From Deltaproteobacteria bacterium (GTDB lineage Bacteria > Desulfobacterota > Binatia > DP-6), in contig VBKF01000092.1 in the NCBI GenBank assembly GCA_005888095.1, positions 613 to 64,612 on the forward strand: a stretch of DNA of 64,000 bases. The letters run 5' to 3'. Positions 45,733 to 62,011 of this stretch are shown piece after piece. The position numbers and the translations under genes are program-made. A model generated the notes under the pieces. The model made no database searches. It saw only the letters and a list, made by a program, of their open reading frames with translations, and was not told where the DNA came from. Every line of letters begins with the position of its first letter. The stretch's first letter is position 1.

Positions 45733-46479
45733 ATGGTACGCCGGGGCGGGGAGGACTCCTCGGGCGAGGGGACGTCCTGGCTGGTGCTGCGCCACACCCC
45801 GGCCGAGGGGCTCGGGCTGCTCGCCAACCCCCTGCGCGACTTCGGCGTTCACCACCGCTACCTCGATCTGCCGCGCGGCGAGCCGCTGCCGCGCGACCTG
45901 CGCACCGTGGGCGGCCTCATCGTGCTCGGCGGCGCGATGGCGGCGTACGAGGCGGATCGGCATCCGTTCCTCGCCACCGAGAGCACGCTGATCGAGCGGA
46001 CCCTCACGGCCGGGCGGCCGGTGCTCGGCATCTGCCTCGGCGCCCAGCTGATCGCGCAGGTGCTCGGCGCGCGCGTCTATCCGGGCGAGAAGCGGGAGGT
46101 GGGCTGGGCGCCCGTGACGCTCACGGAGGACGGTGTCGACGATCCGCTGTTCGCCGGGTGCGAGCCGACGCTGACCGTCTTCCACATGCACGGCGACACC
46201 TACGAGCTGCCGCCCGACGCCCACAACCTGGCGCGCTCGAAGCTCTACGAGCAGCAGGCGTTCCGCTGGGGGGACCTCGTCTACGGTGTCCAGTTCCACC
46301 TCGAGTTCACGGACACGATGATCGCACGTCTGGTGAGCGAGGCCGAGTCGCGGGCGTACATCGCCGGCGCCGGCGTCGATCCCGACCGGTTGCTGGCGGA
46401 GACGCCCCCTCATCTGCGCCAGCTCGGCGACGTCGCGCAACGCGTCTTCTCGAGCTTCTTCGCGCAGTGCGGGCTCTAG
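45733..46479 (+). CDS. type 1 (class I) glutamine amidotransferase-like protein
   Basis: The 248-residue protein has the class I glutaminase fold. The first strand and loop are GLIVLGGAMAAYEADRHPFL, the nucleophile elbow GICLGAQLIAQVLGARV contains the catalytic Cys, and YGVQFHLEFTDTM contains the catalytic His-x-Glu pair. This resembles GMP synthase-like amidotransferases that act on unknown small substrates, with no fused synthetase domain. AGAGGGGG precedes the ATG at 45733. The last bases of the gene, including the stop TAG, form the left end of the inverted-repeat element at 46476. Confidence 0.9.
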   Translation: MVRRGGEDSSGEGTSWLVLRHTPAEGLGLLANPLRDFGVHHRYLDLPRGEPLPRDLRTVGGLIVLGGAMAAYEADRHPFLATESTLIERTLTAGRPVLGICLGAQLIAQVLGARVYPGEKREVGWAPVTLTEDGVDDPLFAGCEPTLTVFHMHGDTYELPPDAHNLARSKLYEQQAFRWGDLVYGVQFHLEFTDTMIARLVSEAESRAYIAGAGVDPDRLLAETPPHLRQLGDVAQRVFSSFFAQCGL

Positions 46480-46656
46480 GAGGCTGTCCGAGTAACGCTC
46501 CGGCTGCGGCGAACGATCCGGGGGTGCGAGCGTCGTGCTCGCGCCTCCCTCGTGCGGCGTAGCTCTGCTACGCCTCCTCGGTCGGCGCTGCGCTCGCCGC
46601 TCTCGCTCCCCGGCTCGCTCGCCTCGCTTTCGTCGGTTACTCGGACAGACTCCTAG
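46476..46656. repeat. fold-back inverted-repeat element A (MITE-like), CTAGGAG ends
   Basis: This 181-base intergenic element has terminal inverted repeats. The left end is CTAGGAGGCTGTCCGAGTAA (46476 on) and the right end (46635-46656) is its reverse complement, with one mismatch over 21 bases. Internal hairpins include GCGAGC...GCTCGC at 46526-46542 and GGCGTAGC-TCT-GCTACGCC at 46556-46574. It sits exactly between two convergent genes and supplies the stop codon of the amidotransferase, so it may double as a bidirectional terminator. No transposase is encoded. Non-autonomous mobile element or REP-like repeat are both possible. Confidence 0.7.
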
Positions 46657-58260: not shown

Positions 58261-59544
58261 CTACTCGCAGGGCGCGCTGCCGATGCAGATGCCGTCCGCG
58301 AAGCCGGGGTTCACGCACACGTACCCGAAGGGATCGGTGCAGTCGGAGTCCTGCGTGCAGAGCTTTCGGCAGGCGAGTCCCCCGTCGTCGACGCACACCT
58401 CGTCAGGACCGGAGCAGCCGAAACCCGGGCACTGGCAGACGCGCGAACTACAGCCTGCAAACGTGCAATACTGCCGGCAGATGCCCGCGCCGGAGCACTC
58501 CGCATCGGTCGCGCACGGCGGGCCGACGCAGTAGCGCGTGTCGCCGCCGTTGTCGCGACACGTGTAACCGTCGGGGCAGTCGCCGTCGCTCGCGCAGGTG
58601 ACCCCGGATTGGCAGGTCGGCGACGGTGGGTTGCACTCGGAGGGATAGCCCGCGACGAGCGGTACGGCGAGCCGGTCGGCGCAATCGGCCTCGAACTCGG
58701 TGACGCAGCCGAGGCAGGCGACGAGGCCGGCGAGGTCGCCGATCGGGCCGCCGCAGGCCGCCCCGCCCGGCACCTGGACCGCGGGGCAATCGGCGGCGAC
58801 GCCGATCGACGCCGGCGTCAAGTCATCGCCACCCCCGCAGCGGCCGTCGCCGCCGCCACAGGCGGCGCAGATGGCGGCCGACGTGTTCGCCGCTGCCGCG
58901 GCGATCGCCGGGCCCGCCCGGCCGTCGCCGGGATCCGGGCACGGGTTCTGGTGGAGGCCGCGCAGGCGAGCGTCCCAGCACTTCCGCAGGGCCTTCGACT
59001 TGGCGATGAAGAAGCGCGCCGCCTCCTTGCCGATCGCCCGGCGGCAGGCGCCGAGCGGCGGAGCGGCGGGCGCCGGTCCACTCGGACCGAAGGAGAGCGC
59101 GATCAGCCGGTCCACCGCGGCGCTGCCGACGCACGTGAAACAGACCGGGATGTCCGCGTCGCCGCCCATGGCATTCGTGCACGCGCCGTTCTGGAGGTTC
59201 GGGCAGCTCCCGATGTCCCATCCGACGGCGGCGAGCGGGTCGTCGTCAGGCGTCCCGCAGCGTCCGTCCACCCCGCAGCACGCCCGGACCACCCCGGCGC
59301 TCGCCTTCTCCGCGGCGCCCGAGATGCGCAGGGCGGTCGCCGAGTCGTTCCGACATTCGGTGCCGGCCGGCAGGAGGCCGACGATCACTCGGTCCGCGCA
59401 GCGTTCGCGCGCCTTCGTCACCGATTGGACGTAGTGGGCCGCCTGCTTGGCGACCTCGCGCCGACAGCCGAGCGGCTCGCCGCGCGCCGGGTGAGCGACG
59501 AGGGCCAGCGCCAGAAAGCCCGCTGCAATGCCGGGGCGTCGCAT
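58261..59544 (-). CDS. Cys-rich exported protein
   Basis: The 427-residue protein has a signal peptide (GIAAGFLALALVAHPARGE). The first two thirds hold two related helical blocks (CRREVAKQAAHYVQSVTKAR and CRRAIGKEAARFFIAKSKAL), each followed by a Cys-rich segment, suggesting internal duplication. The C-terminal 140 residues have dense Cys with patterns like CASDGDCPDGYTCRDN and CTQDSDCTDPFGYVCVN, as in Dickkopf-type or Cys-knot modules of myxobacterial-like surface proteins. Function is unknown. It lies 76 bases upstream of the lipase-like gene on the same strand. Confidence 0.7.
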   Translation of the reverse strand: MRRPGIAAGFLALALVAHPARGEPLGCRREVAKQAAHYVQSVTKARERCADRVIVGLLPAGTECRNDSATALRISGAAEKASAGVVRACCGVDGRCGTPDDDPLAAVGWDIGSCPNLQNGACTNAMGGDADIPVCFTCVGSAAVDRLIALSFGPSGPAPAAPPLGACRRAIGKEAARFFIAKSKALRKCWDARLRGLHQNPCPDPGDGRAGPAIAAAAANTSAAICAACGGGDGRCGGGDDLTPASIGVAADCPAVQVPGGAACGGPIGDLAGLVACLGCVTEFEADCADRLAVPLVAGYPSECNPPSPTCQSGVTCASDGDCPDGYTCRDNGGDTRYCVGPPCATDAECSGAGICRQYCTFAGCSSRVCQCPGFGCSGPDEVCVDDGGLACRKLCTQDSDCTDPFGYVCVNPGFADGICIGSAPCE

Positions 59545-59910: not shown

Positions 59911-60219
59911 CTAGGAGCGCGACCCAAGACATCTTGGGTCGCGAACCGGACGCGAGGGTGTTCCGTCGCGATCACGCCCGACTGTCCTGCCGCGGCTGGC
60001 GAAGCCAGCGCGGCAGACGAACACGCGCGGTTCCACGGCCACCGCAGACAGGCCCAATCGGCAACCGATAAACACGAGTGCCGCGAGACCTCTGGAACGG
60101 CGCGTGTCGGTTGTGCCGCGCTGGCTTCGCCAGCCGCGGCACGGCGGTCGCGCGTGCCGCGAGCGCCACATGCTCGCGTCCGTGCCCGCGACCCAAGAAG
60201 TCTTGGGTCGCGCTCCTAG
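59911..60219. repeat. fold-back inverted-repeat element B (MITE-like), CTAGGAG ends
   Basis: This 309-base non-coding element is a large inverted repeat. Its ends are CTAGGAGCGCGACCCAAGA and the reverse complement. Each end also folds on itself: 59918-59943 and 60187-60212 are 12-bp stems with 2-base centres. A second, inner pair, TGCCGCGGCTGGCGAAGCCA... at 59988-60015 and its exact reverse complement at 60114-60141 (28 of 28 bases), also forms internal hairpins. It encodes no transposase. The terminal CTAGGAG is shared with element A. Confidence 0.75.
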
Positions 60220-60407: not shown

Positions 60408-60500
60408 TCGAGCCGAGGTCTGGTGATGTATCGCTTCAGGGGCGGCAAAATCGCCGAGCAGAGATGGGTGGAATGGGAGATCAGCGCCGCTCGACCATGA
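60408..60500 (+). pseudogene. remnant of a SnoaL-like / ester-cyclase family gene
   Basis: The last 25-30 codons read GLVMYRFRGGKIAEQRWVEW and then EISAARP, which matches the C-terminal strand of SnoaL-like or ester-cyclase proteins. Nothing upstream in this frame continues the fold. Its stop overlaps the ATG of the Ada-AlkA gene (ATGA), so an intact gene may once have been translationally coupled upstream. The match is short, so this is tentative. Confidence 0.4.
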
Positions 60501-62011
60501 CCCTCGACCCGGCACACTGCTACCAGGCCGTGCTGAGCCGCGACCGCCGCTTCGACGGCCGCTTCTTCGCCGGCGTGGTCACGACCGGCGTCTACTGCCG
60601 GCCGATCTGTCCGGTGAAGCCGGCGAAGCCGCAGAGCGTCCGGTGGTTCGCGTGCGCCGCCGCGGCCGAAGCCGCCGGCTTCCGCCCCTGCCGCCGCTGC
60701 CGCCCCGAGACGGCGCCCGGCACGCCCGCCTGGACCGGGACCTCGGCCGTCGTCTCGCGTGCGCTCCGCCTGATCGCCGCGGGCGCGCTGGACGACGGCG
60801 CCATGGAGGGCTTCGCGAGTCGGCTCGGCGTCGGGACGCGGCAGCTCCGCCGCCTGTTCGGGACGCACCTGGGCGCATCGCCCATGCAGGTGGCCCGCGC
60901 GCGTCGCGTCCACTTCGCGCGCGCCTTGATCGACGAGACGGACCTGCCCATGGCGGAGGTGGCGTTCGCGGCGGGATTTGGCAGCGTCCGGGACTTCAAT
61001 TATGCCGTGAGGGCCACGTTCGGACGCTCGCCGACGGAGCTCCGGCGCGCGCGTGGTGCGCGCAGCCCGCGCGCGGACGGGGCCGGTCTCGCGGTCCGGC
61101 TGCCGTACCGGCCGCCGCTCGACTGGTCGGGGCTGCTCGCCTTCCTCGCGCCGCGTGCCACACCGGGCGTGGAGGCGGTGGCGGACGGCGTCTACCGGAG
61201 GACGATCGCGGTCGGCGATGCGCGGGGCACGATCGAGGTGCGTGCGGCCCCGCGCGAGCCGCATCTTCTCATGCGCGTCCGGCTCGCGCGTGCCGAGCGC
61301 CTGCTCCAGGTGGTGGAGCACGTGCGGCGTCTCTTCGACCTCGACGCGGATCCGGCGCTGATCGCGAACCACCTCGCCCGCAGCCGCGTGCTGGCGCCGC
61401 TGGTGGCGCGCCGCCGCGGTCTCCGGGTGCCCGGGGCGTGGGACGGCTTCGAGCTCGCGGTGCGCGCGGTGCTCGGCCAGCAGGTGACGGTGCGCGGCGC
61501 GACGACGCTCGCCGGGCGCGTGGTGCGCGCGTTCGGCACGCCGCTCGACCAGGCACAGGACGGACTCACGCATCTCTTTCCGCAGCCCGAGGCGCTCGCC
61601 GACGCCGACCTCGCGGCAATCGGCCTGCCGCGTGCCCGTGCCGCGACCATCCGTGCGCTCGCTGCCGCGGTGGCGCGCGGCGACCTCGTGCTCGAGGCCT
61701 CGCGCGGCCTCGAGGACGCCGTCGCGCGACTCGTCGCCATCCCCGGCATCGGTACCTGGACCGCGCAGTACGTCGCGATGCGCGCCCTGGGAGAGCCCGA
61801 CGCCTTCCCGGCGGGCGACCTCGGGCTCCGGCGGGCGCTCGCCAACGGCGCGGGGCCGCTGCCGCCGGCGCGTGTCGCGGAGCTGGCGGAGGCGTGGCGG
61901 CCCTGGCGCGCCTACGCCGCGCTCCACCTCTGGACCGGCCTGGCGGGCGAACGTGGCTACGCGGAGAACGGGATGTTCCGAGCCCGTCACACGGCGGTCG
62001 CGTCCTCGTAA
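60497..62011 (+). CDS. alkA: Ada-AlkA fusion: methyl-phosphotriester-responsive regulator and 3-methyladenine DNA glycosylase
   Basis: The 504-residue protein joins an Ada zinc domain (DPAHCYQAVLSRDRRFDGRF, then GVYCRPICP and FRPCRRCRPE, giving the four Cys) to an AraC-type helix-turn-helix (VGTRQLRRLFGTHLGASPMQ, MAEVAFAAGFGSVRDFNYAV). An AlkA glycosylase domain follows (ELAVRAVLGQQVTVRGATTL, helix-hairpin-helix LVAIPGIGTWTAQYVAMRAL, catalytic Asp in PAGDLGLRRAL). It senses and repairs alkylated DNA. No O6-methyltransferase (PCHRVI) domain is present. ATG 60497 starts the Ada domain cleanly. Confidence 0.9.
   Translation: MTLDPAHCYQAVLSRDRRFDGRFFAGVVTTGVYCRPICPVKPAKPQSVRWFACAAAAEAAGFRPCRRCRPETAPGTPAWTGTSAVVSRALRLIAAGALDDGAMEGFASRLGVGTRQLRRLFGTHLGASPMQVARARRVHFARALIDETDLPMAEVAFAAGFGSVRDFNYAVRATFGRSPTELRRARGARSPRADGAGLAVRLPYRPPLDWSGLLAFLAPRATPGVEAVADGVYRRTIAVGDARGTIEVRAAPREPHLLMRVRLARAERLLQVVEHVRRLFDLDADPALIANHLARSRVLAPLVARRRGLRVPGAWDGFELAVRAVLGQQVTVRGATTLAGRVVRAFGTPLDQAQDGLTHLFPQPEALADADLAAIGLPRARAATIRALAAAVARGDLVLEASRGLEDAVARLVAIPGIGTWTAQYVAMRALGEPDAFPAGDLGLRRALANGAGPLPPARVAELAEAWRPWRAYAALHLWTGLAGERGYAENGMFRARHTAVASS

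Follow-up and report, generated by a model that had tools for sequence, protein, structure and literature searches.

Element B, a 309-bp fold-back unit in the window (the 64-kb stretch of DNA analysed here), is a mobile element and not a conserved RNA, because it has sharp ends, a high copy number, near-identical copies and empty sites that hold a single CTAG-type word. It is probably a MITE moved by a DDE transposase of IS1182 type, and it represents a new family within a kind of element that is already known. CTAGGAG-ended MITEs of this type are widespread across phyla and, as far as the literature was searched, hardly described.

Architecture of element B

Element B spans positions 59911–60219 of the window, begins with CTAGGAGCGCGACCCAAGA, finishes with TCTTGGGTCGCGCTCCTAG and carries CTAGGAG at both ends. 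Its outer arms (59911–59943 and 60187–60219, 33 nt each) are 97% complementary, and each forms a 12+2+12 hairpin of its own (26 nt, H1). The inner arms (59988–60015 and 60114–60141) are complementary at 28 of 28 positions, and the pairing extends to 43 nt at 91%. The first-pass annotation had described nested hairpins with a perfect inner repeat, and this description is accurate: its coordinates are exact to the base, a hairpin lies in each end and the inner repeat is matched throughout. The features are as follows.

59911..60219, no strand: whole element B, CTAG to CTAG; nearly all full-length copies in the source genome and in G001 share both borders, and the flanks outside are unrelated
59911..59914, no strand: left CTAG, the target word, duplicated on insertion wholly or only in its central TA, judged from the single CTAG-type word at the relatives' empty sites
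60216..60219, no strand: right CTAG, on the same basis
59915..59930, plus: left terminal inverted repeat GAGCGCGACCCAAGAC; the outer GAGNNYG.CC is common to element A and IS1182-type ends
60200..60215, minus: right terminal inverted repeat, GAGCGCGACCCAAGAC on the minus strand
59918..59943, no strand: left end hairpin H1, CGCGACCCAAGA-CA-TCTTGGGTCGCG; arms stay perfect across related genomes, where several changes are paired
60187..60212, no strand: right end hairpin H1, as on the left
59951..59970, no strand: weaker hairpin H2, left; a local fold, poorly conserved
60151..60184, no strand: weaker hairpin H2, right; a local fold
59988..60015, plus: left inner hairpin H3, TGCCGCGGCTGGCGAAGCCAGCGCGGCA; across 27 copies, 26 of 28 columns do not vary, and nearly all variants of the inner stem are paired
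60114..60141, minus: right inner hairpin H3, exact reverse complement of the left; 25 of 28 columns invariant over the same-sized range
60016..60113, no strand: central region, the most variable part, without a gene; mean variability 0.12 versus about 0.01 in the end hairpins
46476..46656, no strand: sister element A, 181 bp, with CTAGGAG ends and an inner end, TGTCCGAGTAAC, of the kind usual in IS1182-type elements

Folded as single-stranded DNA, element B has an MFE of −149.2 kcal/mol, whereas shuffled sequences reach −78.2 ± 4.0 kcal/mol (z = −17.7, with 0 of 100 shuffles as good), in agreement with the earlier judgement that the palindrome is far beyond chance. No longer inverted repeat was found in the window when a 12-base seed was used and the arms were limited to within 1.5 kb. 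The 309 bp lack gene-coding capacity, and the open reading frames that overlap them are mechanical readings of a GC-rich palindrome.

Copies, borders and empty sites

The source genome (G000) is a 5.46 Mb draft assembly of 271 contigs, and BLAST returned 75 matches to element B in it, both strands together. These reduce to about 21 copies of the ~309-bp form that are full-length or nearly so (83–100% identical), about six copies of a ~270-bp form, a few fragments and two single hairpins; the family totals about 30 copies in this genome. The window copy is identical to that at C127:34089 and 99.7% identical to that at C90:63557, and the flanks of these copies are unrelated. About ten further copies occur in G001, which belongs to the same genus, G002 holds one copy of the ~309-bp type together with a 340–343-bp subfamily, and G005 contains dozens of copies that are more divergent relatives of element B.

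Alignment of 27 copies from three genomes revealed fixed borders between unrelated flanks. CTAG is present in every intact copy and is conserved at 92–100% per base over 86 ends; conservation begins sharply at this word, with none outside it. Empty sites were sought by joining the flanks of each copy across CTAG and querying six genomes of the family. The sites occupied in G000 at C106:55065, C127:11342 and C137:65463 are empty in G001, where each is uninterrupted and has one CTAG. The C137:65463 site is also empty in G002, where it holds CTAC, and the C70:17183 site is uninterrupted in both G001 and G002, with a diverged junction. For the window copy, no empty site was found in the six family genomes. 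At one locus on contig C90 (L003), a 309-bp copy (1501–1809) has inserted into the CTAG that borders an older 271-bp copy (1806–2076), and the two share one CTAG.

The first-pass annotation had likened the structure to MITEs and had proposed counting genome copies and looking for empty sites in close relatives. Both checks were run: copies are numerous in the source genome and in genomes of the same genus, and three occupied sites are empty in relatives, which bears out the MITE reading. The contrary outcome that it had envisaged, an element absent elsewhere and conserved as a structured RNA, was not encountered, and no Rfam family matched above its gathering score. Element B is short and non-coding, has terminal inverted repeats and occurs as dispersed copies with exact borders and empty sites, as MITEs do.

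Solo end hairpins with CTAG on both sides were observed at L059:702–741 (40 bp) and L326:1478–1520 (43 bp). A deletion that joins the two H1 copies of an element could account for such single-hairpin forms; it is possible that they are minimal mobile units instead.

Terminal sequences and the candidate transposase

Element A, the second fold-back element of the window, shares its CTAGGAG ends with B, but its inner end is TGTCCGAGTAAC and it lacks an end hairpin. It is present at about five places in G000, and about 50 of its ends occur in G004. In a scan of GTDB genomes, the full 20-base A end, CTAGGAGNNTGTCCGAGTAA, was found in at least 119 stretches, and those listed come from Planctomycetota, Acidobacteria, Nitrospira, Chloroflexi, Alicyclobacillus, Methylobacterium and others. 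Among the listed matches, eight loci (L213, L221, L238, L276, L282, L285, L287 and L292) carry A-type ends paired 1.47–1.63 kb apart around an IS1182-like transposase gene; the three of these that were tested with NCBIfam belong to the IS1182 family (NF033551, E 1e-106 to 1e-111). About 40 further end pairs among the listed matches are MITEs, mostly of 56–295 bp.

An IS1182 element of Marinobacter has CTAGGAGTCTGCGCGG ends, so CTAGGAG can be retained when the inner end is a different one. The end of B, CTAGGAGNNCGACCC, shares CTAG, the following GAG and outer positions with IS1182-type ends and differs beyond the outer ten bases, which would fit the pattern of CTAGGAG with a variable inner end. 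From these sequence comparisons we infer that an IS1182-type enzyme moves B itself. A transposase made elsewhere, in all likelihood an IS1182-type DDE enzyme, would bind the terminal inverted repeats (GAGNNYG.CC...) and excise or copy the element, which would then be inserted at a CTAG word and come to have CTAG on both sides.

In Rhizobium members of the IS1182 family, the ends are GAGCCTGTGAA or GAGCTTGTGAA and stand in a different context. At L353 and L354, IS1182-family genes on rhizobial plasmids have candidate GAGCCTGTGAA or GAGCTTGTGAA ends that follow CCTCA or CCTGA and not CTAG; these putative ends suggest other target words within the family.

A gene-bearing element with B's own ends was not found in G000–G006. 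The end pattern has 51 exact matches in G000, none paired at insertion-sequence length. A class-wide scan detected exact B ends in only 4 of 148 genomes and yielded no autonomous partner. Viral contigs gave no exact match to B ends, and plasmids gave weak partial matches only. Among the one-ended A-type loci of G004, whose open reading frames were listed mechanically, there was no convincing gene-bearing element with paired ends. DUF772, the domain of IS1182 and IS5 enzymes, was not detected in G000 (a draft), G002, G004, G005 or G006. The one IS1182-family transposase gene in the genus lies in G001 (L198:199–1508, E 2e-111); no recognisable CTAGGAG ends were found on its short contig, which on one side stops about 200 bp past the gene. 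An IS1182 transposase in the same genome is not strictly required for a MITE, as the partner can be lost.

The first-pass annotation had also named REP doublets mobilised by TnpA-like enzymes, and this comparison did not hold up. In such a doublet, similar to a REPIN, a RAYT/TnpA Y1 transposase that recognises a tetranucleotide together with a hairpin would move the two hairpins as single-stranded DNA. Opposed end hairpins do adjoin a tetranucleotide in element B, single-hairpin forms exist (L059 and L326), G000 has seven Y1_Tnp matches, and insertion beside a tetranucleotide without a longer duplication would suit Y1 chemistry too. However, the tag is CTAG and not the GTAG or CGTC of REPs (PMC3733652), and a search of seven genomes for Y1_Tnp found none in G004 or in the copy-rich G005, while the loci fetched from G000, G001, G002, G003 and G006 were without element hairpins. 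Element A has the ends of B without an end hairpin, so what the two have in common is not a Y1 enzyme that reads hairpins. An origin as a REP doublet is thus improbable, and an IS1182-type DDE transposase suits both the ends and the target word better.

Conservation of the hairpins

Variability between copies is lowest in H1 and H3 and highest in the centre. In related genomes, perfect 10-bp arms were retained in 118 of about 122 H1 hairpins adjoining an element end. Five arm types of H1 were distinguished, and their changes (AAGA/GAGA, C4 to G, C4 to T and A8 to C) are matched on the opposite arm. The inner stem of H3 has three main types (GCTGGC, GCCGGC and GCCAGC), each with a matching partner arm, and the H3 loop is altered together on both sides of the element in G001 and G002. 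In contrast, the long left–right pairing in the spacers decays mostly through one-sided changes with few compensations, and the long palindrome was accordingly rejected as a conserved fold. Because changes are paired in H1 and H3, unlike those in the spacers, the local hairpins are being kept intact. Selection on the fold and hairpin-templated correction would each do this, and both fit the data; the copies are related, so counts of paired changes are not counts of independent events.

The persistence of perfect H1 arms through paired changes makes it seem that structure matters. H1 and H3 may be kept for cruciform recognition in transposition, or as a harmless stem-loop or terminator beside host genes. 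It is conceivable, though doubtful, that the end hairpins are recognition parts, such that an IS1182-like transposase reads an extruded cruciform and paired changes retain the fold even as the sequence itself drifts. If this were true, fold-back MITEs with IS1182-type ends from unrelated phyla, those of the B family and of Planctomycetota, would be independent products of one structure-dependent mechanism, which would match the stem-loop dependence reported for IS1272.

Target word and neighbouring genes

The empty sites hold a single CTAG or CTAC, and both a 4-bp duplication and a duplication of TA only are candidates. In a count that the search pattern biases, the base just inside TA is invariant at 86 of 86 ends and the base just outside is kept at 79 of 86, as a TA duplication would give; under such a duplication, the element would start with GGAG. 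These features could suit a MITE from a different DDE family whose target is CTAG or the TA at its centre, such as IS630/Tc1-mariner (with TA duplication), IS701 or IS5. This origin is nevertheless unlikely: DDE_3 (IS630) has no match in G000, G004, G005 or G006, DUF772 (IS5) has none in G000, and the tested gene-bearing loci with element-A ends match IS1182 transposases. IS630 was rejected as a source on the absence of DDE_3 from G000.

Many copies of element B appear, from the adjoining reading frames, to be located just behind gene ends. In 31 of 36 copies, the TAG of CTAG closes a frame of at least 150 open codons on at least one side, and the TAG frame reaches this length on 56% of sides, versus 19% and 32% for the other frames. 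In a strict longest-frame test, the count for B was 29 of 68 (P 0.12, not significant), and for the cross-phylum set it was 68 of 142 (P 0.0003). Unoccupied CTAGs in the window behave like occupied ones in the stop-codon test. Stop-codon targeting by B, given the P value of 0.12 and the likeness of free CTAGs in the window, is suggestive only and was not adopted. Within GC-rich genes CTAG is uncommon, and it frequently overlaps a TAG stop codon. Insertion at CTAG would re-create the target word and with it the stop codon, which could explain why such copies are tolerated and how a CTAG-targeting element could spread while doing little harm.

Position near gene ends also bears on a conserved structured RNA or regulatory element, for example a bidirectional terminator or attenuator, whose movement would be incidental. 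Such a role would accommodate the TAG-closed frames beside 31 of 36 copies, the high conservation of H1 and H3 and the upkeep of their pairing through paired changes. It is, however, highly improbable for an element with dispersed copies, sharp transposon borders and empty sites, and whose long left–right pairing is being lost through one-sided changes. The reading frames on either side of the window copy both have it upstream: 58261–59544 (minus) and 60464–62011 (plus), the latter an Ada/AlkA-like repair gene. An RNA formed by the whole element was rejected, as Rfam gave only sub-threshold microRNA-like and other chance matches.

Relation to described elements

IS1182-derived MITEs have already been reported in archaea, including the ISMac2 MITEs of Methanosarcina acetivorans; they are gene-less, 150–300 bp long and present in several to tens of copies, share terminal repeats with IS1182-family elements and have short direct repeats, of 4 bp in one of two (PMC3852290). 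Element B resembles them in being gene-less and multi-copy with short direct repeats, but its terminal repeat holds a perfect hairpin, its interior holds a second hairpin pair and an autonomous partner was not found. The IS1182 family acts at palindromes, and its gene-near copies lie immediately downstream of genes; IS1272 depends on a stem-loop and replaces the target stem-loop, leaving no duplication (PMC5678879). IS1272 and B are alike in their use of palindromes, whereas the target of B is the palindromic word CTAG, which is kept on both sides. REP/REPIN elements with RAYT (PMC3733652) share with B opposed hairpins, a tetranucleotide tag, an intergenic position and single and double forms. 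B differs from them in its CTAG tag, in its length (309 bp, not units of 20–40 bp), in having no linked Y1 gene and in having a sister without end hairpins.

A literature search found no description of the B family, of the hairpins maintained inside its terminal repeat or of the cross-phylum spread of CTAGGAG-ended MITEs. With many copies, subfamilies, solo hairpins, empty sites and a sister family with the same ends, element B provides a natural data set in which one can ask whether IS1182-family transposases recognise DNA structure, a question raised by IS1272.

Six loci (L211, L231, L300, L301, L307 and L310) hold fold-back elements, each about 282 bp long, whose CTAGGAG ends are of IS1182 type, and the titles seen were of Planctomycetota. 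Like B, these mainly planctomycetotal elements (L211, L231, L300 and L301) have CTAG ends, a long palindrome and inner hairpins; unlike B, they have a terminal repeat of the TGTCCGAGTAAT type and an inner sequence unrelated to that of B. Those that were folded are long palindromes with inner hairpins, and folds of the L211, L231, L300 and L301 type reach −163 to −193 kcal/mol.
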